IMG/VR virus record: IMGVR_UViG_3300021079_000723
Coordinates: 1 to 31,883 of that record
Origin: a virus
Direction: 5' to 3' (one strand)
Length of the DNA stretch: 31,883 bases
Part shown: one piece after another, positions 1,351 through 22,501 of the stretch
Layout of the letters: each line of letters starts with the position of its first letter
Numbering within the stretch: the first letter of the stretch is position 1
Notes under the pieces: model-generated
What the model was told of the DNA's origin: nothing
The model's database searches: none
What the model saw: the letters and a program-made list of their open reading frames with translations, nothing else
Program-made: the position numbers and the translations under genes

Positions 1351-1626
1351 CTAAAATACTTGCTCTTTGCTTTTTTTGAATTCTTCAAAAGCCAATTCTA
1401 AAGTTTTTGCTTCTTCTTCCAAAGCTTTTAGTTCTAATTGAACCTTCTCATAAAAAGTTTTTAGTTCTAATTTTTTAATTTTTTTGTCTTCAAATATTTG
1501 AGATATTTTCTTTGAAAATTCAACAAATTCTTCTGTCAAAAGATACTCATTTTTTTCCATATTTTCCTCCAATTTACCATCTAAAGGTTTTTTATCCTTG
1601 CTTTGTATATATCGTTTTTTAGCCAT
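1351..1626 (-). CDS. small coiled-coil protein (91 aa)
   Basis: A 91-residue, highly charged protein rich in K and E. From about residue 28 to the end it is predicted to be one long helix with heptad-like spacing of leucine, isoleucine and phenylalanine, typical of a coiled coil. The first 20 residues are basic. Its ATG at 1626 overlaps the end of the SpoVR gene by 8 bases, so it is translationally coupled and the last gene of the PrkA-DUF444-SpoVR run. It may be an accessory partner of that system, but nothing in the sequence proves it. Confidence 0.65.
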   Translation of the reverse strand: MAKKRYIQSKDKKPLDGKLEENMEKNEYLLTEEFVEFSKKISQIFEDKKIKKLELKTFYEKVQLELKALEEEAKTLELAFEEFKKSKEQVF

Positions 1627-4600
1627 TTTTTGTGTGCTCTTCTCTGCTTACAACTTCAATATCTTTTATCGGATCAGTGCCATAACAGCAATAGACCTTT
1701 TCATTACCATCTTTGTCTTGCGTGGACAAATAAACATCATTTCCCCAAATAGCTCTTAAAGCCACTAAAACGTCTGATACGTAAGGCTCGTATAAAGTTC
1801 GTCCATCAAACTGATGCTGCAACATCATGCCCCCTTTGCCCCTATAATTGGGCTCTGTGAGCTTTATTTCTGGCTGACCTCCATTTAAGTGCCTTTTCAT
1901 TAAAAGACTTTTTATTTTCTTATAATCTCTACTTTCTAAACGAAACTCACCATTAGGATAGTGAGTCCAATAAAAATATTCTTGTGTTCTGCAAAAATCT
2001 TCTGTGAAGAATTCATGTATAAATGTTAAATCATCATAATACTTTCTTACCTCAAATATTTTCTCTTTTCCTAAATTAGTTTTAACATCCCAAGATTCTT
2101 TTTGATGAATATTAGTGCATTCGTCCCATTCAGAGCCAAATCTTCCTTTATCCCATCTATCACGAATATCGGATAATAAATAATACCCAAGTTTATAAGG
2201 ATTCATAGAATACTTACCACCTAAAACGCCCATTTTATGCTCAGAATATTCTACAATTCCACAATCATGACTTTTTTGTCCAAGAGAAGCAAACCCCTGT
2301 TCTGCCATAATTACTGAGTCTGTCGTGCTATTATGATTTATGAATCCACAAGCTGAATATCTATTGCTTGTTTCTACCGTAATATCATAAACTGTATCTT
2401 TTCCAATTTTTTCGACAGAAACAATTTTATTTTCAAGTTTTTGTTTCACAAACCATTTGTGACTAGAGATGTATTTCCTTAATTTGTCTTTTTTTCTTTG
2501 TAAACCAAATCCAATTTGTTCTTCGTATTTAACAGCTTCTGAGCCGGTCATCCGAATATGCCAACATGAATCCTTTTGTTTTCTTCTTGTAGAGAGAATC
2601 TTAAAATTCAAAAGCACATTCTGAATTTGTCTGGACATGCTTTCGCTTGATGTGGAGAGTATTACCCCTGCAGTCCCCGCATAACCATCGCAATCAAAAT
2701 AAGATCGGATGAATGCCGCAACCACACTTTTTGGTGATTTCAATATAATTTCTGGTATGTTTTTAAGTCTAGCACAAACCCCTGTTTTCATACCAAGATG
2801 AACAAGGAGTTCTTCCAAATCTTTAGAGTATACAACAGCCCTATATCTACCATTTTTTGATGATCCATCCCATTTTACCTTACATTCTAATCCAAATAGA
2901 TTACTCAGCAAAGTAGCGTAATGATCAATTTGCTCTTTATCTCCAGATGTTAAACCCATAGTTCTTTTAACTAAAGAAATATGACCATCACCAATCATGT
3001 ATCCAATAAACGAAGCAAAGTCTTCATTCATATATTCAGGAACATTAATAATGTTCCTCTTGTTTCTCATAAAAGTAGTTTTTTGATTGTCATATTCTTT
3101 AATCAAAGTTCCTAAAGAATCATTTTTTTCTTCACCTTTGTATTGATATTTCCTATAAATCACTTTATATTTTGAAACAGATGCCATTTCGGCAAGTTCA
3201 TTAAGTTCAATTCTTTTTTCTGGTACCTCGTACTTAACCTCTTGCAAGTCATTCTGCCAGATATCGGAAAAAGACAACTCCAATACCTGTCCAACGGACA
3301 TTTCGTCCATACGAATCCAATCATACCTGCCCATAATACGATGGTTATTAGATCCCTCAAAAACATATCCACGACGAGTTTCTATACGATACACATCTCG
3401 ATTTTCAAAAGTGAACCAATTCGTAACTTTTCTTTCTTTCTCTCCATCGTAAATGGTGACTTGCATTCTATTTTCAACTATTTCTCCCAAAGTCAAAATA
3501 CCAAAATTGCTACAAACAAGAGTGTCCTTTTTCCCGCAAGCCCATCCTTCGTTTAAGGTCTTAGTTTGTCTTTGTGGGAAAAAATACATTGCCTCGTCAT
3601 AAAGCATAGAGATAATATCAGCTTGCCATGGTTTGAGCGGTGCGTTATCCCTTAAAAATCCCAAAATATTTTTTGTTGGCTCCTTAAAAATACCTATTTC
3701 TTCTTCAATGTCTTCTTGATGAATTTTTTCATTCTCTTTTTGGCGAAATTCTTGTGTGTTTATAAAAGGCTCCATATACATTCTTTCTTTATTAACTGTG
3801 AGCCTTCTTGGTTGTCTATAAACTCTTTCGTCTTGCACGATAACATTCTTTGAAATTTTATCAGACCACGCTTCTGCTCCGTCAATTAAAGTTTCCAGCC
3901 TCATAACCCAATCAAGAAACTCTATGACTCTTTCTTTTCCCCAACGAGACATATAATTTCTAATTCTTGTGCCATGATTTGCCATTTTATTAAGCATATT
4001 TGTATCTGTGGCACTAAAATGTATATTGTTCTTAAAAAAGTCATTATGCCCTGTGGCATGTGCAATAACAGTCAAATGGTCCAAAAGAGTGTTGCTACTC
4101 AAGCAGTAAATATAACAAGGATTTGTATTGTGTGTGATCAATCCATACGCAATAAAATCATGAGCATCATGATCCAGTGCAATATCAACGGTTTCGATCT
4201 CGTCTCCTTCGGTAACACTATCAACAACAAATAAAGGATTTGAAATAATATCTTTAATATAATTTGGAACACTTAATCCTTGTTCTTCTGCTTTCTGTAC
4301 AAATGACGAACAAGAATTAATCCCGACATTTTTTTTCTCAAACTTTTTAATAGAATAGCCAAGACTATGGTTTTTATATGTTGTGATACCAATATCTTTT
4401 GCCCACATAATCAATTGTCGTTGAATGTATGGTACCTCTATTCCAGAACCACGACAAAATTTTCTATCAAGTAGTTTTTTAAGTGATTCTTGCTTATATT
4501 CAAATACAAAACCTATTCTATTGTAAAATTTATTTTCAGCCCAAATTCCTTGAATTTTAACAACATTAATATATTTTTGATCACCTTTTTTGCCCTTACC

Positions 4601-5746
4601 ATTTTTTAATGTTTTTAAATTAGAAAGAATTCCCATTTCCGAAAGCATAATCTGAACATCATCTGCTAATTTTTTATTGTAACAACTAAAACCAACATGG
4701 TTAGTTACATATCCATCAGTATCGAACAAACCACGAAGAAAAGCACATCTATAGGCAGGAGGAGACTTACAAATAATATCTGGAATTATTTTTTCTTTAA
4801 ATGTTTTACCTTTCTTTAAACCAATCGAATTAACAAAATCAACTGCGTTTTTTGAACATAATGTTACAGTGAAACAATTTGGCTTTTCGTAAATCTCTGC
4901 AACAACTCCAAATACCTTTTTAAATAAATCTACAACATGTTCTGCATATGTCCTGTGTTTTTTACCAACAGCAACGGTTAACATATTTTCAGCAGACTTT
5001 ACTCCTATCGACCCATCTCCAACCAAAATTCCAAGAAGTTCCGCCAATTCTATCGTAATATGATTCGGTGGATAAATTTCTTTAATACAATGCCTAATGT
5101 TGGGACTTGTTGATTCAAAAACTTGTTCGGATGACCAATCAATTCTTGGTGCATCCCAATTACTTTCATATGAATCAGTTCCTACAAAAATGTCACCAGG
5201 CACAACATCCGATGCCTTTTTCCAGATCAAACCATTATTAGAAAGAACACGCCATTTGTGATTTGGCGTACATACTAATGTTTGACCATACTTCAAACAA
5301 ATTTTCTTAGTTTTAGAGGCATCTTGTCTTTTTATCCCAACAACATTCCTAGTTTCATTTCCAACAATAACCTGATCGCCAGCCACTACATCTCCAGCTA
5401 GAACCGTACCCCGCTTAGTCAAAACCGGAGCATCAAGTTCACAGCAATTGATTACCATTTCATATATTTTAAAAAGTCCGAACTCATACCCACGTTGTAA
5501 CTCTTCGTATTCCATACCAAACGACCAGTGTGGAAAACGAACAGGGAATCCATTATATGCTGCTATTTCGCTAATTTCGTCGTATGTTAGCAACTGAACT
5601 ACTGTTGGATAAAAATCTAGACCCCAATCTTTACAAGACTGTAATATCTTTGGTGCTAGCTCTTTTAGCTCTTTAGAAAGCTGCACGCCTGGAACAGTAT
5701 TATCTCCTAACAGAATAGGAGATCCATGCAAAAATTTATTTGACAT
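1619..5746 (-). CDS. spoVR: SpoVR family protein containing two inteins
   Basis: The 1375-residue frame becomes a normal-sized SpoVR-family protein of about 532 residues (E. coli YcgB is about 510) once two inteins are removed. Exteins are residues 1-100, 541-736 and 1140-1375. Family landmarks visible across the joins are IYEMVIN/TNPCYIY, IAHATGHNDFFKNN (histidines 563 and 567), FFPQRQTKTLNEGWA, and MNPYKLGYYL followed by the RDRWDKGRFG block. SpoVR is needed for spore cortex formation in Bacillus and also occurs in non-sporulating bacteria, usually beside prkA and yeaH; its biochemical role is not established. All three partners are present here on one strand. The start overlaps the preceding gene by 11 bases. 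Both inteins sit at highly conserved sites, so the protein must splice to work. Strong family call; role in the phage unknown. Confidence 0.93.
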   Translation of the reverse strand: MSNKFLHGSPILLGDNTVPGVQLSKELKELAPKILQSCKDWGLDFYPTVVQLLTYDEISEIAAYNGFPVRFPHWSFGMEYEELQRGYEFGLFKIYEMVINCCELDAPVLTKRGTVLAGDVVAGDQVIVGNETRNVVGIKRQDASKTKKICLKYGQTLVCTPNHKWRVLSNNGLIWKKASDVVPGDIFVGTDSYESNWDAPRIDWSSEQVFESTSPNIRHCIKEIYPPNHITIELAELLGILVGDGSIGVKSAENMLTVAVGKKHRTYAEHVVDLFKKVFGVVAEIYEKPNCFTVTLCSKNAVDFVNSIGLKKGKTFKEKIIPDIICKSPPAYRCAFLRGLFDTDGYVTNHVGFSCYNKKLADDVQIMLSEMGILSNLKTLKNGKGKKGDQKYINVVKIQGIWAENKFYNRIGFVFEYKQESLKKLLDRKFCRGSGIEVPYIQRQLIMWAKDIGITTYKNHSLGYSIKKFEKKNVGINSCSSFVQKAEEQGLSVPNYIKDIISNPLFVVDSVTEGDEIETVDIALDHDAHDFIAYGLITHNTNPCYIYCLSSNTLLDHLTVIAHATGHNDFFKNNIHFSATDTNMLNKMANHGTRIRNYMSRWGKERVIEFLDWVMRLETLIDGAEAWSDKISKNVIVQDERVYRQPRRLTVNKERMYMEPFINTQEFRQKENEKIHQEDIEEEIGIFKEPTKNILGFLRDNAPLKPWQADIISMLYDEAMYFFPQRQTKTLNEGWACGKKDTLVCSNFGILTLGEIVENRMQVTIYDGEKERKVTNWFTFENRDVYRIETRRGYVFEGSNNHRIMGRYDWIRMDEMSVGQVLELSFSDIWQNDLQEVKYEVPEKRIELNELAEMASVSKYKVIYRKYQYKGEEKNDSLGTLIKEYDNQKTTFMRNKRNIINVPEYMNEDFASFIGYMIGDGHISLVKRTMGLTSGDKEQIDHYATLLSNLFGLECKVKWDGSSKNGRYRAVVYSKDLEELLVHLGMKTGVCARLKNIPEIILKSPKSVVAAFIRSYFDCDGYAGTAGVILSTSSESMSRQIQNVLLNFKILSTRRKQKDSCWHIRMTGSEAVKYEEQIGFGLQRKKDKLRKYISSHKWFVKQKLENKIVSVEKIGKDTVYDITVETSNRYSACGFINHNSTTDSVIMAEQGFASLGQKSHDCGIVEYSEHKMGVLGGKYSMNPYKLGYYLLSDIRDRWDKGRFGSEWDECTNIHQKESWDVKTNLGKEKIFEVRKYYDDLTFIHEFFTEDFCRTQEYFYWTHYPNGEFRLESRDYKKIKSLLMKRHLNGGQPEIKLTEPNYRGKGGMMLQHQFDGRTLYEPYVSDVLVALRAIWGNDVYLSTQDKDGNEKVYCCYGTDPIKDIEVVSREEHTKNG
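2330..3538 (-). mobile_element. intein 2 in SpoVR, with LAGLIDADG endonuclease
   Basis: Residues 737-1139 of the SpoVR frame (403 aa). It begins with Cys after NEGWA and ends in FINHN before Ser, the +1 nucleophile of the C-extein. Hedgehog/intein block A runs from the Cys (CGKKDTLVCSNFG), and a block B-like NHRIMG segment lies near residue 801. Two LAGLIDADG motifs, FIGYMIGDG (about 913-921) and FIRSYFDCDG (about 1012-1021), are about 90 residues apart, the normal spacing for an intact homing endonuclease. Their acidic residues are present. It should be splicing-competent and possibly still mobile. Confidence 0.92.
4127..5446 (-). mobile_element. intein 1 in SpoVR, with LAGLIDADG endonuclease
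   Basis: Residues 101-540 of the SpoVR frame (440 aa). It begins with Cys in a CCELDAPVLT block A and has a TPNHKWRV block B (about 160-167). The LAGLIDADG motifs are LLGILVGDG (about 237-245) and FLRGLFDTDG (about 336-345). It ends in YGLITHN before Thr, which opens the conserved TNPCY block of SpoVR. Key splicing residues (Cys1, the block B His, the terminal His-Asn and Thr+1) are all visible, and the endonuclease motifs look intact. The coordinates follow from the extein alignment and are exact if Cys101 is residue 1. Confidence 0.93.
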
Positions 5747-6287
5747 TAGTTTTTCTCAATGGGTATTTTGCTACAAAAAAGTTCATTTCTTTTTTTAACG
5801 TTTTACTATTTTTGGTGGATAGCCTAAAACCAGATTTCATCAACTTTTGTGAAATTGTAGGATTGTCCAAACGTGCACCAGTTTCTATTATGCGTAGCAC
5901 TTCTTTGATTTCTCTTATAGGCATATTAATCTTTTTTGCAGCTTTAATCAAGCAAGAACATGCACGAATAGCTTTATTAATTCTTTCTTCACATTTCATA
6001 AAAAAAGGTTCAAGTGAATTTGGATGATGAATATACAGATCTTCTATTTTCATTCCTTTTGTATTTTTCTTGCCTTTAGCAAACAACCAATATCTTTGTC
6101 TCCATTTATTAATTTTTTTAACATGTACTTGCCTAGCTGTTGATATGCCTTTGTATGGAGAAGTAAGCGTTTTAACTTCAAACATATTGCCTTTTTTATC
6201 TTCTGCGTCGTGTAAATATCTGCTGTCAACCTTAATAAGTTGACATAATTTAATTATTTGTTTTTCTCTTGAATCATCTTGAGTCAT
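5736..6287 (-). CDS. hypothetical protein, possible PD-(D/E)xK nuclease
   Basis: A 183-residue basic protein. The N-terminal half contains a possible restriction-endonuclease-like core: Asp26 or Asp30, then the F-E-V-K strand around residues 37-40, then a basic segment with a conserved-looking INKWRQRYWLFAKG stretch. The C-terminal half is helical and lysine-rich. This pattern is compatible with a PD-(D/E)xK nuclease fold but does not prove it. The gene lies between DUF444 and SpoVR, overlaps the SpoVR start by 11 bases and is therefore coupled to it. The ATG at 6287 has no clear ribosome site; the TTG-started DUF444 gene ends 30 bases upstream. Confidence 0.6.
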   Translation of the reverse strand: MTQDDSREKQIIKLCQLIKVDSRYLHDAEDKKGNMFEVKTLTSPYKGISTARQVHVKKINKWRQRYWLFAKGKKNTKGMKIEDLYIHHPNSLEPFFMKCEERINKAIRACSCLIKAAKKINMPIREIKEVLRIIETGARLDNPTISQKLMKSGFRLSTKNSKTLKKEMNFFVAKYPLRKTNVK

Positions 6288-6317
6288 AGCTAAAATTTTT
6301 TTGTAATGATATTACTT

Positions 6318-7529
6318 TTAAGGGTAAGAAGCATCTTCTTCGTTATTCCCTAAAAGCGATTTTATTGCATTCATTATTTGTTTATTTCTTTCTTCTTCAC
6401 TTAGTGCAGAAGAATTCCAATAACCAGCCGTAGAACCTTCTCCAACAGAAACAGTTCTCACATAATCACGCTCTAGTTTTCCTTGTCTTATTGCTTGATC
6501 CACATCATGCTTAACGCTTCCGGTTGTAACAGAAGAAAGTATTTGAGTAATACCTGTAAAATTAACAACATTTGATCCAAAGTCTGATTCTAAAGTTGAA
6601 ATAAAAACTTGGTTATCATCAGTCCAGTTTTCACCGTCTGTAAAATAAAAAACATAGATATTCCATTTGTTTGTAGGATACCTATTTTCAAACTGTTTAG
6701 AAATAAACTTTAAAGCACTGCTGCAGGTTGTTCCGCCGCCAAATCTATATTTATAAAATTTATCTTCATCTACTTCCATGGCACTAGAATCATGCCAAAC
6801 GTATAATCGATCCACTCGATCATAAAACCTTCTTATCCACGTATCTATCCACCAACTCATATCAGAAACAATATCGCATTTCGTAGCGTCCATAGAACCA
6901 GATCCATCTCTTGCAAAAACAATAAGAGCATTGCTTGATGGTATTTTTATTTCATTAAACTGTCTGTACCTCTTATCTTCATTTATTGGCTTAAGAATTC
7001 TTACAGGATCTTTTAGTCCTGGAACGTAAGAAAGATCACTCAACGTTCCTTCTACAGCTTGTCTCTTTAATGTTTGCATTAGAGTGCGTCTGTTGTGCCG
7101 CAGTGACTCTGGACCAATTAAAGAGATATTGTTATATTTTATTTTTATTTCATCATAAGTTTCATTTGTTTTTTTCTTTAAATTTGGAAGCTTTAGTTCT
7201 TCCTGCATAAATTTAAGAACATCTTCTAGATCTAGGCTAATGGTAATTCCCTCGGATTCACCTTGCCCAGCAGACCCTTTGCCTTTCTTGGGTTCGTCTT
7301 TTCCGATCACATCCCCATCTTTACCTTCTCCTCTTCCAACGCCATCGTCGCCCGATCCGTAAACAATATGGGGAATATCTATTTTTGGAATTGTGATAGA
7401 TATTTTTCCGTTTTTACCACGGTTACGAACGATCTGTCCGCTTTTTATAAACTTTTTAAGGGCTTTTCTTATCTTGCCCCCTACAACGTCTCGGAAGTCT
7501 TTCCAATCTTCTTCAATTCTTCTAGGCAA
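6318..7529 (-). CDS. yeaH: DUF444 (YeaH/YhbH) von Willebrand A-like protein
   Basis: A 403-residue protein of the YeaH/YhbH (DUF444) family, close to the usual length of about 400-430. It has the family N-terminus (MPRRIEEDWKDFRDVVGGKI), the conserved IDIPHIVYG block near residue 51, a glycine-rich linker (residues 59-92) and a von Willebrand A-like domain. The domain has a metal-site motif D-x-S-x-S at residues 208-212 and a GGGTTCSSAL segment at 264-273. In bacteria it is usually co-transcribed with the kinase PrkA (YeaG), and the pair is linked to starvation and stress responses. The start is TTG at 7529, with AGGTGA just upstream; no ATG fits the conserved N-terminus. Confidence 0.93.
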   Translation of the reverse strand: MPRRIEEDWKDFRDVVGGKIRKALKKFIKSGQIVRNRGKNGKISITIPKIDIPHIVYGSGDDGVGRGEGKDGDVIGKDEPKKGKGSAGQGESEGITISLDLEDVLKFMQEELKLPNLKKKTNETYDEIKIKYNNISLIGPESLRHNRRTLMQTLKRQAVEGTLSDLSYVPGLKDPVRILKPINEDKRYRQFNEIKIPSSNALIVFARDGSGSMDATKCDIVSDMSWWIDTWIRRFYDRVDRLYVWHDSSAMEVDEDKFYKYRFGGGTTCSSALKFISKQFENRYPTNKWNIYVFYFTDGENWTDDNQVFISTLESDFGSNVVNFTGITQILSSVTTGSVKHDVDQAIRQGKLERDYVRTVSVGEGSTAGYWNSSALSEEERNKQIMNAIKSLLGNNEEDASYP

Positions 7530-7558
7530 GGTTCACCTTTTTAAATTTAAATTATCAA

Positions 7559-7789
7559 TTAATCTAAACAAACCAATTCAAAAATAAACTTATTATCATC
7601 TATTTCGCAAACAAAGTCGGAAAGATTAAGGTGCATAAGAAAATCTTTTTCTTGTTTGGTTAATCTTTTAAAAAAGTCACCAAAAGTTCCATCTTCACTC
7701 CATACCTCTAGACCAGCATCATCAATTTTATTGACGATTCTCTTTTTTTTCGCAGTACCCAACCAATGGTTTTTCATTTTAATTTTCAT
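7559..7789 (-). CDS. small hypothetical protein (about 76 aa)
   Basis: I do not recognise this protein. It has a basic N-terminus (MKIKMKNHWLGTAKKKR) and an acidic, hydrophobic C-terminal half ending in EIDDNKFIFELVCLD. The ATG at 7789 is chosen; an ATG at 7777 is equally possible. A longer reading from a TTG at 7813 would run through one arm of the GC-rich inverted repeat described below and is unlikely. It lies between prkA and the DUF444 gene, so it is probably part of the same transcription unit. Confidence 0.5.
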   Translation of the reverse strand: MKIKMKNHWLGTAKKKRIVNKIDDAGLEVWSEDGTFGDFFKRLTKQEKDFLMHLNLSDFVCEIDDNKFIFELVCLD

Positions 7790-7795
7790 TTTCCA

Positions 7796-7860
7796 GTAGG
7801 GGCAGAGCCCCAAAAAAGGTGAACTTACACACCTTGCCCACAGAATAACTCTGCCCCTAC
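7796..7860 (-). terminator. nested inverted repeat after prkA, terminator-like
   Basis: An outer perfect 12-base-pair stem, GTAGGGGCAGAG (7796-7807) with CTCTGCCCCTAC (7849-7860), encloses an inner hairpin, AAGGTG (7816-7821) with CACCTT (7830-7835). On the minus strand the inner hairpin is followed by a run of T, like a rho-independent terminator. The outer stem is strikingly GC-rich for this AT-rich window. It starts four bases after the prkA stop codon. It may partly end transcription so that prkA is made in excess over yeaH and spoVR, or stabilise the mRNA. It may instead be a palindromic repeat unit. Confidence 0.55.
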
Positions 7861-7863
7861 CAA

Positions 7864-9951
7864 TTAATTTTCTTCCTCAGCTAAATCCCCACGAGCAAAT
7901 ATACTACCAACAAAGTCCAAAACATCGGTAGCAGACCTTTCGTTGTATCCATACTGTTTGATCAGTCTGGTTTTGATAGCATCTATTTTTTCTTGAATAT
8001 CTTTATCTACAACAGTTGCTCCACTCACATTAAGAGCGGATAGCTTTATGGTGTCCTTAACATCTTCAAAAAGTTTTGCTTCTAAAGCTTTTCTTAATTT
8101 TGGGTTTGAATCCCATCTAAATTGCTTTTGTTTGTGTGCTAAATCACCAATAAATGCAGCCATCTGACGACGAAAATCTTCTGCACCAGTTTCAGGTATT
8201 TGAATCTTTTCCTCAATCTGACGCATTAATCTCTCGTCAGGTTTTCTGTCCTGACCTGTTATTGGGTCTTTGATCCTAGACTTATTAATATAAGCCATCA
8301 CGTTGTCGATATAATTGGTGCACAATCTGATAATTGCATCTTCGTCACCAACAAGTGCTTTTTGAACCTCAGCCTTAAGAATTTCTGTTAACTTCTTCAG
8401 TGCTAAATCCACACAAGTAATGTATCTACCGACTTGTTCTTTATTCGTTAGAAGAGAAGAATTTTCCAATCCATCTCTTAGCTCATTTAGAACCATAAAC
8501 ATATTTACATATTCATGATTGTTTGCTAAACAATTAGATATTTTGTCTTGTAAGTATCTCACACTAACCCCACCAGCCATTCCTTCATCTGGATACTTGT
8601 CTTTCATTTCTTTAACAGCATCTTCTGTCCATCCCGGCAGAAGCCGTCCATCATAAAGCTCGGCTTTTTCTATTAAAGAAAGCTTTCCATCTTTATCATC
8701 TAGCATTCGAGTAAGTACAGAAAAAAGAGCAGCTATTTCTAGTGTATGAGGTGCTATATGTTGCTTTACCTTATTCGGACCATAGTCCTTCTCTAGTATC
8801 TTCACTTCTTCAGACCACTTTAAGGTGTATGGAACATCAATTTTTGTTGTTCGATCACGAAATGCTTCCATATACTGATTGCTCTTTAGCTTCTGAAATT
8901 CTGGATCGTTTGTATGGCTAAAAATTGCTTCATCGATACTAACCTGTGCGAATTTCTTTGGCTTAATACTTTGTTCTTGACTCGCTCCTAAAAGGTCATA
9001 CAAGAATGCTGTGTCTAACTTCAATACTTCTATAAATTCTATTAGCCCTCGATTACCAGCCATAAATTCGCCATCAAAAGAAAATGCTCGAGGATCTGAG
9101 TCAGAACCAAAGTTGCCAATTTGCCTAAAATTAATATCTCCTGTTAGCTCAGTACTGTCCTGATTCTTTTCGTCCTTTGGTTGGAATGTTGCAATTCCAC
9201 AGCGATCAGCCTCGCTATAAACTTTTCTAATTACACGAATATGATTAACTAAAACTTTTTCTAGATCTCCTTCATACTTTTTAAGCAATGATCCCATGAA
9301 CTTTTTGCATAAAGGATCTAATTCATCATTACACTTTAAAGTATAAGAATCAGTTCTTCTGTTTTCTGGTAGCGTTTCCTCAAATATTCTGTTTAACTCT
9401 GCCATAAAAACTTTTCTAATTTCTAACGGCAAAAGCTTTAATGGTTGTTCATGCATAGGACATGCACATTCTGTATCGGTGTAAATACCATCAGGTCCTG
9501 TTGGCAAATTAACCCACTTGAATGAATACCAAGCTCCATCATCGGTTTGCGAGAATCGCTCAAGACCCCTTTTAAGAAGTCGGCAGATTGTGGACTTGGA
9601 GCTTCCAACAGGACCGTGTAGAAGCAAAATACGACGCTCCGCACCGTATCCTCCAGCAGCTCCTTTTATAAACTTTACAAGTGCATCTTTCATCGGAATC
9701 AAACCAACAATTGGTAGTTCCGCATCATCAAAAAAATTATAATGTACATAAGTTTTTCTGTATTCTTCAACAGTAGAACTTCCTTTTTCCATTATCATTT
9801 CATAAATGTTTTGCCAAGAATTTCTAGCAAGATATGGTTTTTGTTTTACTAGTTCCAGATATTCAATAAAACTCATTTCTGAGTTTAAAGATTTAAACAC
9901 ATCTTTGTTAAAAATACTTAGTAGTTTTTCTAAGGTGTTTTGTTCAGTCAT
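7864..9951 (-). CDS. prkA: PrkA (YeaG) family serine protein kinase, AAA+ type
   Basis: A 695-residue protein (E. coli YeaG is 644) with the AAA+ architecture of PrkA. The Walker A motif GPVGSSKST is at residues 113-121. Further on come a GNRGLIEFIEVLKLD block, the SIDEAIFSHTNDPEFQKLK block with the following EAFRDRTTKIDVPYTLKWSEEVKILEKDYG segment, and a C-terminal kinase-related region containing GGVSVRYLQDKIS. PrkA-family kinases phosphorylate serine or threonine and act in sporulation and starvation responses. It is the first of the trio to be transcribed. The ATG at 9951 is preferred because it gives the canonical N-terminus; a TTG at 10017 would add 22 residues with no visible ribosome site. 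Strong family call; the target in the infected cell is unknown. Confidence 0.93.
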   Translation of the reverse strand: MTEQNTLEKLLSIFNKDVFKSLNSEMSFIEYLELVKQKPYLARNSWQNIYEMIMEKGSSTVEEYRKTYVHYNFFDDAELPIVGLIPMKDALVKFIKGAAGGYGAERRILLLHGPVGSSKSTICRLLKRGLERFSQTDDGAWYSFKWVNLPTGPDGIYTDTECACPMHEQPLKLLPLEIRKVFMAELNRIFEETLPENRRTDSYTLKCNDELDPLCKKFMGSLLKKYEGDLEKVLVNHIRVIRKVYSEADRCGIATFQPKDEKNQDSTELTGDINFRQIGNFGSDSDPRAFSFDGEFMAGNRGLIEFIEVLKLDTAFLYDLLGASQEQSIKPKKFAQVSIDEAIFSHTNDPEFQKLKSNQYMEAFRDRTTKIDVPYTLKWSEEVKILEKDYGPNKVKQHIAPHTLEIAALFSVLTRMLDDKDGKLSLIEKAELYDGRLLPGWTEDAVKEMKDKYPDEGMAGGVSVRYLQDKISNCLANNHEYVNMFMVLNELRDGLENSSLLTNKEQVGRYITCVDLALKKLTEILKAEVQKALVGDEDAIIRLCTNYIDNVMAYINKSRIKDPITGQDRKPDERLMRQIEEKIQIPETGAEDFRRQMAAFIGDLAHKQKQFRWDSNPKLRKALEAKLFEDVKDTIKLSALNVSGATVVDKDIQEKIDAIKTRLIKQYGYNERSATDVLDFVGSIFARGDLAEEEN

Positions 9952-10072
9952 GATATTTTTCCCATTTTGAATTAGTACTAAAATTTCTGGTGTGATACAC
10001 GCATCATACAAAAACAAATTGACTCGATCAAGTCACGAAATTAATATAGTGAACTACTAACAATTTTAGAAT

Positions 10073-13667: not shown

Positions 13668-14684
13668 TCAATATTGTTTCAATATTTTTTCAATATTCTT
13701 CAATTCATTCCAAGCCTTTTGTCTAATAGGACGCCATATTTTACCATAGCCAGCATTTTCATAATATTGTTTAAAAAACAAAAAGCGATTGTATTTGCGT
13801 TCAAGACTGAAATTTGCCCCTTGGTAAATATAATTCATAAATAACATAGCGTTTCTTTTATTGAATGACACTTTCCAAATATTCCTGTTGAATCTCAAAT
13901 AACTTTTTGCACCAAACTCATCTAAACAAACTTCTTGTAATTTTTTTGCAAAATCATAAGAAGCACAAATCGTTACACACGGATAGACATAATATTTATG
14001 AGAATTTTGTATGCAGCCATCGCCATCAAAATACCCTCGTAAGAAATGCCTCAATAAACAAACTTTAATGTTCGGAAATTTAACTATTTTAGTTTTTCTT
14101 GGAACGCACCCAAGAGTGACAAGTTGGTTAGCCAAAATAACATTCGTGATACATAACGACACTTGGTCGCCACAATCAGTTCGGGGGACCAATTTTACTG
14201 AATAATCAGTAACAAGACATTTTTTAATGTAATCTAATATAGCCCTGTCATTTTCTTTAATTTGCACTCTAAATCCAGTCAATTTACCTTTGCTGTCGTA
14301 CACGCATCCATCGGCAAAAATGAAACCTAATGAATACGCCTTGTCTTGAGTATCTATTTGTTGAAAAAAAGTTTCATCAATATCAATAGTTGTTCTCTTG
14401 CGTAACTTAATGCCACCTAATTGCAATGCTTTTTTAACTCTGGGTCTATTAGACTTAATGACATCAGAAATTTGCTTTAATGTAAAATTTTGATTATAAA
14501 GAAGAACCACCTTATTTATCTCATCTTGTTGCAACACAAGTTTTTCTTTATTTGACTTTGGCACTTTAAGGTTGTGTGCAACACAAATACGACGAATTAC
14601 AGACCTGTCACAACCGCACTTTTTTGCAATTTTAGTTAAACTTGTGCCAGATTTTAACCAAATACAAATTTGTTCAATATCCAC
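13668..14684 (-). CDS. free-standing LAGLIDADG homing endonuclease
   Basis: A 338-residue protein. The N-terminal 95 residues contain two helix-turn-helix-like segments (SLTKIAKKCGCDRSVIRRI at about 15-33 and TLKQISDVIKSNRPRVKKAL at about 68-87), like the DNA-recognition domains fused to some homing endonucleases. Two LAGLIDADG motifs follow, AYSLGFIFADG (117-127) and HFLRGYFDGDG (213-223), each ending in the catalytic acidic pair. Spacing of about 95 residues fits an intact two-motif enzyme. It is flanked by HNH genes and fragments and is not inside an intron or intein. The C-terminal and intergenic DNA has a short repeated AATATTGTTTCAATATT-like pattern. Confidence 0.88.
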   Translation of the reverse strand: MDIEQICIWLKSGTSLTKIAKKCGCDRSVIRRICVAHNLKVPKSNKEKLVLQQDEINKVVLLYNQNFTLKQISDVIKSNRPRVKKALQLGGIKLRKRTTIDIDETFFQQIDTQDKAYSLGFIFADGCVYDSKGKLTGFRVQIKENDRAILDYIKKCLVTDYSVKLVPRTDCGDQVSLCITNVILANQLVTLGCVPRKTKIVKFPNIKVCLLRHFLRGYFDGDGCIQNSHKYYVYPCVTICASYDFAKKLQEVCLDEFGAKSYLRFNRNIWKVSFNKRNAMLFMNYIYQGANFSLERKYNRFLFFKQYYENAGYGKIWRPIRQKAWNELKNIEKILKQY

Positions 14685-16601: not shown

Positions 16602-16898
16602 TCACTGAATAATTTTTTTGTTATTTGAAGCTAAGACAATGCCACTGCCGTATTGGCTACTGTATCCATTTTTAACATCTGCATCTGGCTCTGATATTAA
16701 AACAACATGATTTATACCAATAGTATAACTTTCATCACTACTAAGAGGCATAAGCGGAATAGATCCTATGCCTTCCGCTGTCATCATAAACCTTTGTGGT
16801 TTTTTCATTTTTATACTTTTGCCAAATAATTCATCATCAACCAATTCAATATCTGCAACGATGTCTTCCCCTGTGGCTATTTTTACTAGTTTAATCAT
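16602..16898 (-). CDS. small beta-rich protein (98 aa)
   Basis: A 98-residue protein opening MIKLVKIATGEDIVADI, then a KSIKMKKPQRFMM strand, and a C-terminal half of short beta strands. This resembles the small Sm-like phage proteins with a TGEdIvaei opening, although I cannot confirm the family. It overlaps the end of the HldE-type gene by 8 bases and is followed by the Dam gene four bases later, so it is probably co-translated with both. No catalytic residues are evident. Confidence 0.6.
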   Translation of the reverse strand: MIKLVKIATGEDIVADIELVDDELFGKSIKMKKPQRFMMTAEGIGSIPLMPLSSDESYTIGINHVVLISEPDADVKNGYSSQYGSGIVLASNNKKIIQ

Positions 16899-18270
16899 TT
16901 TTTACCTTTTCTACTATTTGTGAAATTAAATTCGTTGTTGAAAAACCTGACACCATCGGAAAAACACAAACCTCTGCTGCGTGGCTAGCACCTACAATAT
17001 CCTCTTTTTTGTATTCAGAACCTTTAACAATTACATCCGGAAGTATTTCTTGGATAATGTTAAGAGGCGTTTTTTCATCAAAAACAACAATATAGTCTAT
17101 TGATTCTAAAGATGATAACACTTTTATTCTATCACATAAGGACTGTATAGGTCTACCCTTCTTTAGTTGAGAAACACTTCTGTCTGTATTGATTCCTACT
17201 ACTAGTTTCTCTCCTTTTGACTTAGAAAAGTTAAGAAGCTCAATATGTCCGGTATGCAATAAGTCAAAACACCCATTTGTAAAAACTAATTTAAAGTCTC
17301 TTCTTCTCAAATCGGAAGCGTTTACAACTTTATCTTTGCCAACTAAATCAAGCTTGTTTATTGGCTCATTGTACTTTTTACGCACATAGATCAAACCCGC
17401 TTCTAATGCTATTTTAGATGCTTCTAATATTGAGGCTCCTCTAACAAGAGCCATAGTTAAAAATGCGACAAAACAATCGCCAGCACCTATAACCGATTCT
17501 GCCTGAGGTGCTGTGCAATCTGGAAATATCTCAACTGCCTTGATTCCTTCTGCCTGATTAGAAATTACCGTTATGCATTTATCTTCATTTGTTATGACAA
17601 CATGTTCACAATTAATCTTTTTAATTATCCATATACCAGCATCAATAGCGTTGCTACAGCCAGATATTGATATTGCTTCTTTGTAGTTTGGCTTAAAAAC
17701 GGTACATCCATTCCACTTTTCAATATTCTTACATTTGGAATCAACTACAGTTATGGGAACATTTTTTATCAAAGACGGCAAATAGTGTTCACAAACGCCT
17801 TTGTCATAATCAGAGAATATTAATGCTGAAAACTCCCCTATTCTAGGTAAGTTTTTATCATATAACTCTTGACATAATTCCAGTATAGATTGTGAATCCA
17901 TTCCATAGAATTCTTCCTCAATGTCCCATCGATAAGTAGGAAAATTTTCGCTATAGAACCTTCTTTTCCTTGGTATATTATTTTCTATCATCAAACATAA
18001 CGACGTATCTATGTTATGTTCTTCAAGTTGCAGTTTAGACTCTTGATCTAAAAAACATAAAAGTTTAGCTTCAATGCTAAAATGAGAAAACTGATGTGCT
18101 ACATTTGCTGCTCCGCCAGGACATATTTTAGATTTGTCCGTTTTTGAATGCATCACCGGTATTGGAAATTCTGGCGATATTTTTTTTACATTAACAAAGA
18201 AATATTCATCAATCATGGCATCGCCAATAATGCCTATTTTTTTATTTTCTCCAATCAAATATTTCATCAT
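16891..18270 (-). CDS. hldE: HldE-type fused heptose kinase/nucleotidyltransferase
   Basis: A 459-residue two-domain protein, near the usual 475 of HldE. The N-terminal PfkB/ribokinase domain has GDAMIDEY (16-23), CPGGAANVA (50-58) and the catalytic IGAGDCF (261-267; D265 is the likely base). The C-terminal nucleotidyltransferase domain has TNGCFDLLHTGH (331-342, with the H-x-G-H site), then VVGINTD and PDVIVKGSEYKKEDIVGA. HldE makes ADP-L-glycero-D-manno-heptose precursors of lipopolysaccharide. In a phage it could alter host LPS or make an activated sugar for another modification. A related fused sugar kinase/nucleotidyltransferase with a different substrate is possible. The start used (MMKYLIG) is the second-best of two adjacent ATGs; the choice does not affect the fold. 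Confidence 0.88.
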   Translation of the reverse strand: MMKYLIGENKKIGIIGDAMIDEYFFVNVKKISPEFPIPVMHSKTDKSKICPGGAANVAHQFSHFSIEAKLLCFLDQESKLQLEEHNIDTSLCLMIENNIPRKRRFYSENFPTYRWDIEEEFYGMDSQSILELCQELYDKNLPRIGEFSALIFSDYDKGVCEHYLPSLIKNVPITVVDSKCKNIEKWNGCTVFKPNYKEAISISGCSNAIDAGIWIIKKINCEHVVITNEDKCITVISNQAEGIKAVEIFPDCTAPQAESVIGAGDCFVAFLTMALVRGASILEASKIALEAGLIYVRKKYNEPINKLDLVGKDKVVNASDLRRRDFKLVFTNGCFDLLHTGHIELLNFSKSKGEKLVVGINTDRSVSQLKKGRPIQSLCDRIKVLSSLESIDYIVVFDEKTPLNIIQEILPDVIVKGSEYKKEDIVGASHAAEVCVFPMVSGFSTTNLISQIVEKVKND

Positions 18271-20745: not shown

Positions 20746-21021
20746 ATGTCTAAAAAAATAGAACCTATATGCAAAAATTGCTTGTTATATGACGGCAATA
20801 AAAAACAATGTAAAGTTGCTATTTTGGTAGAAGGTACCGAGTACCATTTGCCTGTTAGTCCCAATGATAAATGCCACATGGAAGAACTTGGAATAGAAGT
20901 TGAGCAAGTACGTTGGTGGGTAGAAGACTCTGAAGGAAAACCAACGAATAAAAAAGGAACTGTAAAAATTGAATATCCAAAAAATTTCTTTGGTTATGGA
21001 AAGAATATAAATGTCATGTGA
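20746..21021 (+). CDS. small cysteine-containing protein (91 aa)
   Basis: A 91-residue protein with four cysteines in the first half, CKNC at residues 9-12 and further cysteines at about 22 and 43 (NDKCHMEELG). This could be a small zinc or disulphide unit; the C-terminal half is charged with likely beta strands. The ribosome site is weak. It overlaps the next gene by 11 bases (AATGTCATGTGA contains both its stop and the next ATG), so the two are coupled and probably related in function. Confidence 0.68.
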   Translation: MSKKIEPICKNCLLYDGNKKQCKVAILVEGTEYHLPVSPNDKCHMEELGIEVEQVRWWVEDSEGKPTNKKGTVKIEYPKNFFGYGKNINVM

Positions 21022-22501
21022 GCCACCATATGATTGTCCGGGTGCTACAGGATCAGGAAACTGGTGTGATATTCCATGCTGCAACTGCTGCCCGCCTTGC
21101 CCATGTCACACCAGTGCCACATTCACATATGCTGCTGGTTCATTACGATTAGATCAACCTCCATCATGTGATTGTGCGACTCTGAATGCTACTGGCTATA
21201 CTCTCAAAATAACCCTGACCGGACCTTATGGGCTCAACGACTCTACTGATCCGATACTATACTCATTAACATCCGTCAATCGCACCAATGGTTGTAATTT
21301 CACAAAAAACGGCGACATAGATACCACTATAAATTACGGATTCGAATCAGAAATAAGCTGTGGTAGCTTTATCGCAATCTTGAGCCTTGTTAGCGTAGGT
21401 ATAAATACTTGTAATTGTTCCACGTTGGAAGGTTGCAAGATAGTACTGCTTAGTTGGGAGGAAGACAACTGCGATGGTGGAATAGCTAATATTGAGTTGA
21501 TATCTCCTGATGAAAGCACCACAGGGCAAGAAGAAGATTTAGGATGTGTGTGCGTGCCAGATGAAAACACTCCTTTTGCAATTAAAAAAAGAGTAAAAAT
21601 GGATGCTGTTGATAGTTTCTATACGAACGAATATTCTATTGCAACTGAAGCAAAAATTCCTACGTACCCAAAAGAAATAAATCATAGACAAAACAAACCT
21701 TTAATACATTTTTCTACTTGCGTTGAAGGAGGCTGTTCAGGATGGATAGCATCAAATGGAAAATGCATTAAAACAGAATCTTCTGTTGCTGGCGACCTTG
21801 TTTATAGTGATGTTACAAGTTGTTTATGTAATTCATACCAAGATGTATATGCTTGCAAAGAAATGGCAAAGAAAAACTTATATCCAAGTTTATCGTCAGA
21901 ATTTCCAAAGTTTAATTATGATCTTTCAAAAGACTTTAAACTAAATGTAGACGATAACACATATAAAGATGATGAGGGAAATACTGTAAGTGTTTTAACT
22001 CATTACTGCTCCGTGCCCTGTGAAGAAGTTGTTGTGACTTTAGTATTTACTGGTTGTTGTATGGCAAATCTTGAAATACTAGGATCTCCAACTGCGGAGT
22101 GGACAGCAGGTCGCCCAGTTTTTGCACGTGAAGTTCATTTTATTGCAATAGGAGATGGTACGGTTACAGTAGGAAAGGATAAAGAGGGTCCATGCAAGAC
22201 CATATGCAATGGCTGGGTATTTTCAATAAGTATAAATGGTGGTACATCGCACCATACATTTCCAGCGGCTGTGGTGAATTGTGATTCTGTGGTGGTATCA
22301 TGGATCCCGCCATTTAAAGAAGAATGTTGTATTCACTGTTTAGTTGATTATTCATTTACTAGTTTACCAGCTTGCGAAAATGGTGTTTCTGTGGCTGGTA
22401 TACATCGTAAAAATAAAAAAACTATAAGCAAGAAGAAACTAATCAAAAAAGTAAAAGATCAAACGAACAAAAACCAATTCAAAAAGAAGCGGAATCTTTA
22501 A
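21011..22501 (+). CDS. large cysteine-rich protein, possible virion/surface protein
   Basis: A 496-residue protein with 36 cysteines, many in pairs or C-x-C clusters; residues 19-32 alone carry seven (WCDIPCCNCCPPCPCH). Several strands-and-turns blocks follow, suggesting repeated beta-sandwich modules. The last 35 residues are strongly basic (NKKTISKKKLIKKVKD...). No signal peptide or membrane segment is seen. So many cysteines in a phage protein suggest metal-binding or a disulphide-stabilised structural or receptor-contact protein. It is coupled to the small cysteine protein upstream. Its 3' end overlaps the convergent helicase gene by 23 bases. The family is not recognised. Confidence 0.75.
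   Translation: MSCEPPYDCPGATGSGNWCDIPCCNCCPPCPCHTSATFTYAAGSLRLDQPPSCDCATLNATGYTLKITLTGPYGLNDSTDPILYSLTSVNRTNGCNFTKNGDIDTTINYGFESEISCGSFIAILSLVSVGINTCNCSTLEGCKIVLLSWEEDNCDGGIANIELISPDESTTGQEEDLGCVCVPDENTPFAIKKRVKMDAVDSFYTNEYSIATEAKIPTYPKEINHRQNKPLIHFSTCVEGGCSGWIASNGKCIKTESSVAGDLVYSDVTSCLCNSYQDVYACKEMAKKNLYPSLSSEFPKFNYDLSKDFKLNVDDNTYKDDEGNTVSVLTHYCSVPCEEVVVTLVFTGCCMANLEILGSPTAEWTAGRPVFAREVHFIAIGDGTVTVGKDKEGPCKTICNGWVFSISINGGTSHHTFPAAVVNCDSVVVSWIPPFKEECCIHCLVDYSFTSLPACENGVSVAGIHRKNKKTISKKKLIKKVKDQTNKNQFKKKRNL

Follow-up and report, generated by a model that had tools for sequence, protein, structure and literature searches.

A PrkA-DUF444-SpoVR module conserved in a clade of phages, with mobile inteins in two core motifs of SpoVR

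The virus record IMGVR_UViG_3300021079_000723, a sequence of 31,883 bases (hereafter the window), carries an operon for PrkA, DUF444 and SpoVR. Phage copies of these genes were already known in outline (Thermus phages, RsoM2USA, PHROGs); new are a large phage clade in which the module is conserved, a lineage-specific signature in its SpoVR, and mobile inteins in two core motifs of that protein. We propose tentatively, at a little under an even chance, that in this phage lineage the bacterial module has been retained as a functional machine of three parts: an AAA+ motor (PrkA), a von Willebrand factor A (VWA) adaptor (DUF444) and a metal-binding SpoVR. All genes of the operon lie on the minus strand, with neighbours separated by at most 50 nucleotides (nt) or overlapping slightly, and transcription runs from PrkA through a small gene, DUF444, a PvuII-like nuclease and the SpoVR frame to a second small gene. 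The features are as follows, with protein lengths in amino acids (aa).

7864..9951, minus strand: PrkA/YeaG-family AAA+ protein, 695 aa (PF08298, PF06798; 686 bits to PDB 9xip)
7559..7813, minus strand: small gene in the PrkA/DUF444 interval (open frame; likely ATG start 7777)
6318..7529, minus strand: DUF444/YeaH-family VWA-like protein, TTG start (PF04285, 205.9 bits; alignment of the metal-ion-dependent adhesion site, MIDAS)
5736..6287, minus strand: solitary PvuII-like nuclease gene (PF09225, 24.4 bits; PDB PvuII, E 5.9e-12)
1619..5746, minus strand: SpoVR precursor frame, 1375 aa (PF04293, 309.5 bits)
5746-5447, 4126-3539 and 2329-1619, minus strand: SpoVR extein in three pieces, 532 aa (alignment with intein-free relatives)
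4127..5446, minus strand: intein 1, 440 aa, at YEMVIN|TNP (PF14528 and PF14890 matches in the precursor)
2330..3538, minus strand: intein 2, 403 aa, at NEGWA|S (splicing residues, LAGLIDADG motifs)
1351..1626, minus strand: small gene for a charged protein (open frame overlapping the SpoVR end)

An initial annotation of this DNA had described three large genes in order on one strand of a phage, each with its family landmarks, together with three small genes, and Pfam matches and coordinates bear this out. PrkA matches PF08298 at 257.8 bits and PF06798 at 239.5 bits (cut-offs 25), and DUF444 and SpoVR likewise score far above their cut-offs of 27, the SpoVR match being split in three stretches; the accessory domain SpoVR_C (PF24755) scores 25.6 bits, below its cut-off of 27.6, and was not taken as defining. 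A probable ATG stands at the proposed PrkA start, 9951, in a frame that extends upstream to a TTG at 10017. The three small genes, at 7813-7559, 6287-5736 and 1626-1351, all have open frames, and the Walker A sequence GPVGSSKST (K141), the DUF444 residues DGSGS, T267 and D298, and the SpoVR H-x3-H pair with its glutamate are all present. The SpoVR gene itself stands, but the two LAGLIDADG inteins in its frame had been overlooked.

The module is shared by many related viruses. Searching IMG/VR with the PrkA protein yielded 132 confirmed stretches. Among the best 80, which were retained, 75 loci have PrkA, DUF444 and SpoVR in this order on one strand, far more than chance would give, and the other five (L021, L082, L083, L085 and L086) are cut off where their contig ends. 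Another contig, G001, which is 61.7 kilobases (kb) long and the source of locus L011, spans the window at about 99% identity apart from one replaced stretch. Misassembly of bacterial DNA onto a phage contig, which the initial annotation had named as a possible refutation, therefore has a negligible probability: nothing was found in its favour beyond the module being common in bacteria, and tail sheath genes occur in 4 of 13 related records of the clade. Terminase domains lie above cut-off in three of nine related records and below it in a fourth. In GenBank, PrkA was found in 16 of 50,697 phage records (11 Thermus phages, 4 uncultured huge phages and 1 Enterobacter phage) and DUF444 in 17.

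On the bacterial side, a scan of GTDB with two peptide patterns gave at least 546 confirmed relatives. Among the best 80, PrkAs that are 50-55% identical to that of the window come from Planctomycetota, Myxococcota, Bdellovibrionota, Chloroflexota and other phyla, and 54 of the 80 loci have the same three-gene order. In a FastTree phylogeny of 133 of 168 PrkA proteins, from which those at least 95% identical had been dropped, the phage sequences, 52 rows, make up a single group with support 98 next to 75 bacterial rows, and a far group holds the Thermus phages, the distant huge phages and Enterobacter LAU1. Window-type PrkAs thus cluster with phage copies. As the bacterial sample consists of near matches and the root was set on the far group, the tree speaks for one phage lineage but not for a direction of transfer. 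Among comparisons with unsaturated synonymous divergence (dS), leaving the near-identical L011 aside, the three phage genes have dN/dS ratios of 0.03-0.12, many other comparisons being saturated, and are under purifying selection. One lineage, the order in 75 of 80 loci and this selection agree with the original description of a complete operon on a phage.

SpoVR was compared in an 80-row alignment of intein-free sequences (39 of 53 from phages, 41 of 42 from bacteria), from which 69 rows entered a core alignment. H123, H127 and E293 are invariant in all 80 rows. The position of the HExxH glutamate is Ala in 39/39 phage and Val in 41/41 bacterial rows and never Glu, which makes ordinary peptidase chemistry unlikely. 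Residue 300 divides the same rows, with Asp in all 39 from phages and His in all 41 from bacteria, a split that is unclean outside the alignment (phiYS40 has Asp; Lalka8 and E. coli have His). Structures were predicted from the intein-free relative L012, at full length with 80 sequences and as a core domain with 69, and reached a mean predicted local distance difference test score (pLDDT) of 85.7 and 83.4, respectively. In a VIA-align comparison the first row for the core was 3o0y, a putative lipoprotein with no assigned function (Z 11.9 over 189 residues at 3.6 Å). All other rows with Z of at least 4 were, by title, metallopeptidases or their inactive kin, including leukotriene A4 hydrolase, M32 carboxypeptidases, an aureolysin complex, ACE/ACE2, BepA, PprI and lethal factor; unrelated folds appeared from about Z 3 downwards. 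Full-length VIA-align was led by the same groups, with a best Z of 12.3.

The M1 and M32 families are grouped as gluzincin-type metallopeptidases. SpoVR would resemble this type in its predicted core fold, its H-x3-H pair and its NEGxA helix, whose form NEGFA we take to resemble M1 enzymes, and it differs in the Ala or Val at the HExxH glutamate and in the 166 positions from the second His to the Glu. Given the fold comparison, the invariant H123, H127 and E293 and the missing catalytic glutamate, SpoVR is probably gluzincin-like and metal-binding rather than an ordinary peptidase, the evidence for a zinc-peptidase-like fold without that glutamate being moderate. In open-licence PubMed Central (PMC) literature, the titles and abstract openings of the papers listed mention no metallopeptidase-like fold for SpoVR.

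The two inteins account for 843 of the 1375 residues of the SpoVR frame, and the remaining 532-aa protein aligns nearly end to end with intein-free relatives. Intein 1 begins with two Cys and has Cys1, the block-B sequence TPNH, a C-terminal HN and Thr+1; intein 2 has Cys1, SNNH in block B, a C-terminal HN and Ser+1. Each carries two LAGLIDADG motifs with their acids kept, and the solved chains closest to intein 2 are 7qsu and 7qss, named V-ATPase and V-type ATP synthase. Exact empty sites are found in uninterrupted homologues, for both inteins in L012 and L004 and, at the DNA level, for site 1 in L029. Both inserts are predicted to be self-splicing and able to move from phage to phage, and both sit in the most conserved motifs of SpoVR, which carry the invariant residues.

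Of 76 phage SpoVRs, that of the window counted and L030 truncated ahead of site 2, 14 carry an intein at site 1 and 15 at site 2; 8 have both, 21 have one or more, and 55 are free of inteins. These are counts of contigs and not of independent phages, with near-identical contigs in the sets window/L011, L025/L026, L031-L033, L052/L053 and L062/L063. Parsimony on a quick 81-row PrkA tree, with six cut loci unscored, asks for at least 10 changes at site 1 and at least 7 at site 2. Inteins at NEGWA|S also occur in 6 of 55 bacterial SpoVRs, some of them cut (L110, L115, L117, L132, L158 and L167), in Chloroflexota (L115, Chloroflexus islandicus), Planctomycetota and Myxococcota; intein 2 of the window is 42% identical to that of L132 and 39% identical to that of L167. 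The bacterial inteins of L110, L115 and L158 are short (279-287 aa) and have no clear pair of LAGLIDADG motifs. The intein 1 site was occupied in no bacterial locus examined. An open-licence PMC search found no paper on SpoVR inteins; older intein listings may contain bacterial ones.

The inteins have moved between related phages, and intein 1 appears to have homed recently, as it is little changed in strongly diverged SpoVRs and present or absent in near-identical contigs. Between the window and L025 its DNA is 93% identical (dS 0.19), while the SpoVR extein is 70% identical (dS 2.43) and PrkA is saturated. L013 is nearer to the window by PrkA (88% aa identity, against 78% for L025), yet its intein 1 allele is only 40% identical. 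No difference separates L029 from L032 in the 13,591 nt preceding site 1 or in the 3,610 nt following it, yet only L032 has the intein. In L031, which carries the same intein, the upstream flank departs from L029 at five positions, all within 103 nt of the site; one further difference lies 12 kb away, and there is none in 7,156 nt downstream. Such a short, one-sided cluster of changes is the expected trace of co-conversion during homing. L032, however, carries the intein with an unchanged flank, which complicates the history, and metagenome assembly may blur the comparison of these three contigs.

The PvuII-like nuclease had been regarded as a possible part of the system. Its gene occurs in only two of 88 sources, the window and L011, which belong to the same population, and it is a local insertion that lies in the operon and is not counted as part of the module. 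Its match to PF09225 is just below the cut-off of 25, and the family is known from other phages (phrog_28628). In an alignment to 3ksk the D..ExK catalytic motif is kept but the His-rich recognition loop is not: STHHHMNP, through which PvuII reads CAGCTG, aligns with STARQVHV. The same junction holds another frame in L022 and L023 (BglII-like by Pfam in L023, E 3.3e-14) and a methyltransferase in L043, and is thus a hot spot that takes up foreign genes. A frame with a weak glycosyltransferase match lies there in L075 and its relatives. The window, L011, L022 and L023, which have insertions at this junction, also carry intein 1. Avoidance of CAGCTG was considered as a sign of PvuII specificity. 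The site is absent from G001, which has the nuclease, and occurs 13 times in 126.6 kb, 39 times in 381 kb, 20 times in 225.5 kb and 56 times in 595 kb in four records with no nuclease seen at the operon locus. Since G001 also lacks three other palindromes that would be expected about as often, and since the recognition loop differs from that of PvuII, this approach was dropped and no conclusion on specificity is drawn.

In the working model that we favour, PrkA would act as an AAA+ motor rather than a classical kinase, with DUF444 as its VWA/MIDAS adaptor, and the two together would remodel or load SpoVR. SpoVR, in turn, probably binds a metal and may handle or modify a protein target in a non-growing or stressed host. 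The inteins would have to splice out to rebuild the two split SpoVR motifs and are most plausibly selfish elements that sit at positions where losing them, or excising them imprecisely, would be most costly. Other AAA+/VWA pairs include RavA-ViaA and the magnesium and cobalt chelatases. The DUF444 MIDAS residues D208, S210, S212, T267 and D298 are invariant in eight of eight aligned rows. Possible rare DUF444 starts follow a Shine-Dalgarno-like sequence in some loci (ATT in L012, L015, L041 and L068; ATC in L087).

Several results weigh against this model. The contact between the AAA+, VWA and SpoVR proteins is one that we infer, and 26 of the 80 bacterial loci lack all three genes in order: L125 has another order and ten have at most 6 kb of DNA downstream of PrkA, but 15 have 8 kb there and still no full set, two Sorangium genomes among them having SpoVR elsewhere. 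For SpoVR, besides the missing HExxH glutamate, the His pair of E. coli YcgB and of two distant huge phages is spaced one residue further apart, which disagrees with a canonical zinc helix. Foldseek found no PDB match below E 0.7 for either the full model or the core (best E 0.71), unrelated chains entered the full-length VIA-align comparison from Z 5.0, and VIA-align Z values of about 10-12 are moderate, since by the tool's own guidance those below about 13 may reflect only a common arrangement in helical models. Regarding PrkA, R298, the counterpart of YeaG R232, is Arg in only six of eight aligned rows, and E. coli YeaG is reported to have kinase activity in vitro and to need its C-terminal domain (PMC4664914).

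The latter report favours a different reading, in which PrkA would be a true serine kinase and the operon a phosphorylation-signalling cassette keeping a starved host productive, much as the initial annotation had it. PF06798, the C-terminal 'kinase' domain, is clearly present, and C-terminal mutants of YeaG were inactive in E. coli, K426 being among the residues whose change abolished complementation (PMC4664914). However, K426 corresponds to Asp491 in the window; the position is Asp in six and Lys in two of eight aligned rows, a nearly invariant Asp in 20 rows of the phage clade, and also Asp in the matching PDB chain 9xip, titled 'Serine protein kinase'. A 2026 study of Bacillus anthracis PrkA describes no kinase and negligible protease activity and a kinase domain with no P-loop (PMC13001217). 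The kinase reading of the phage protein thus appears weak, and we judge such a cassette unlikely. Of the residues whose loss had been proposed as a test, those of Walker A, MIDAS and SpoVR are kept (K141, which matches YeaG K116, is Lys in eight of eight rows), but the putative kinase residue K426 is lost.

Alternatively, the module could serve particle assembly as an AAA+/VWA chaperone acting on virion or packaging proteins. In Lalka8 the three genes lie between a minor head protein and TerL, in phiYS40 they are close to the terminase and tail sheath, a head-maturation-protease-like gene follows SpoVR in L071, and the window and L090 each have a TnsA-like nuclease frame whose match, phrog_218, is labelled head closure. 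Yet most of the other neighbours with known relatives that were scanned in these two serve replication, recombination, nucleotide or modification functions (UvsX, gp32-like, helicase, dNMP kinase, thymidylate synthase, DNA polymerase), and the same operon is found in many bacteria. This role seems about as improbable as that of a kinase cassette. Still less probable is that the inteins are also switches, with redox-, metal- or temperature-dependent splicing timing SpoVR activity. It would fit their position in motifs with invariant residues, the two Cys at the start of intein 1 and the NEGWA|S inteins in bacteria of three phyla, but most phage SpoVRs are intein-free, and allele swapping and presence or absence in near-identical contigs fit plain homing. 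A bolder version of the three-part machine is speculative and on the unlikely side: the module would be an unrecognised class of ATP-driven machine in bacteria and phages, in which AAA+ motor and VWA adaptor feed or activate an atypical gluzincin-fold SpoVR. In that version SpoVR would act on proteins without the HExxH glutamate, the phage Asp300 would be a changed active-site neighbour, and two SpoVR core motifs would be intein homing sites.

The small gene between PrkA and DUF444 has kin at this interval in 30 loci (the window counted), its likely start being suggested by comparison with L014, and Pfam gave no match up to E 0.1. Relatives of the small gene at 1351-1626 lie 3' of SpoVR in many close phages; Pfam and PHROG searches up to E 0.1 gave no match to it. 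Frames in the rest of the window include a UvsX-like recombinase, a gp32-like protein, a DEAD/Holliday-type helicase, a dNMP kinase and a D12 methyltransferase, and neither RNA families at the gathering threshold nor transfer RNAs were found in the window. The helicase (22479-25406, minus strand) holds a third intein at TLAWG|CNLPA, whose second LAGLIDADG motif is LFDANG, an Asn taking the place of the expected acid. A free-standing gene at 13668-14684 (minus strand) encodes a resolvase-type helix-turn-helix and a LAGLIDADG domain (phrog_4645); kinship with the SpoVR inteins was considered and dropped, the similarity being weak (E 0.002). A zinc-ribbon-like frame upstream of PrkA (10408; 30.2 bits, cut-off 34.4) may start at ATT. 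Two phages of the clade have a gene for an HldE-like kinase plus nucleotidyltransferase close to the operon (window 16891-18270, minus strand; L071:6605-7960). The Cys-rich frame at 21011-22501 (plus strand) has undergone a module swap, perhaps in a surface protein: where the window has 508 bases in its middle, the otherwise about 99% identical G001 has 1,792 unrelated ones.

What the PrkA/YeaH/SpoVR module, widespread among bacteria, does biochemically is a matter of dispute. The present comparison offers testable predictions, namely a metal in SpoVR at H123, H127 and E293, a PrkA that is a motor and not a kinase, and a phage version that differs at residue 300. The intein alleles provide a natural example of homing, with contigs identical over 17.2 kb that differ only by the element.

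Phage copies of the three families have already been clustered, as PHROG 22605, 19072 and 35217 match PrkA, DUF444 and SpoVR; all three are labelled as of unknown function. The Ralstonia jumbo phage RsoM2USA has SpoVR (ORF28), 56% identical to a Vibrio protein, and PrkA (ORF30), and the cited passages mention neither DUF444 nor inteins (PMC8504454). It is not among the GenBank phage matches described above, a set that may not include its record. Thermus phages (phiYS40, TMA, phiLo, Lalka and MN1) carry PrkA and DUF444, but their PrkAs are only 28-30% identical to that of the window. The two examined, phiYS40 and Lalka8, have a SpoVR-family frame between DUF444 and PrkA; they differ in this order (DUF444-SpoVR-PrkA), in lying near head and packaging genes and in having no SpoVR inteins. 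The huge phages LR745206, LR756502 and LR756504 belong to a distant YeaG-like branch; in LR756502 SpoVR is far from PrkA, and in LR756504 a SpoVR intein sits at NEG|C, two residues from site 2 of the window. By contrast, the 595-kb huge phage LR756511 belongs to the window's clade, with the same gene order and a PrkA that is 65% identical, and differs in its intein-free SpoVR. In E. coli, yeaGH lie together and ycgB elsewhere. The bacterial operon of Planctomycetota, Bdellovibrionota, Chloroflexota and others consists of the same families, most often in the same order, and the phage version is set apart from it by a separate PrkA group, by Asp300 in place of His in SpoVR, and by intein 1 at a site that is empty in the bacteria examined.

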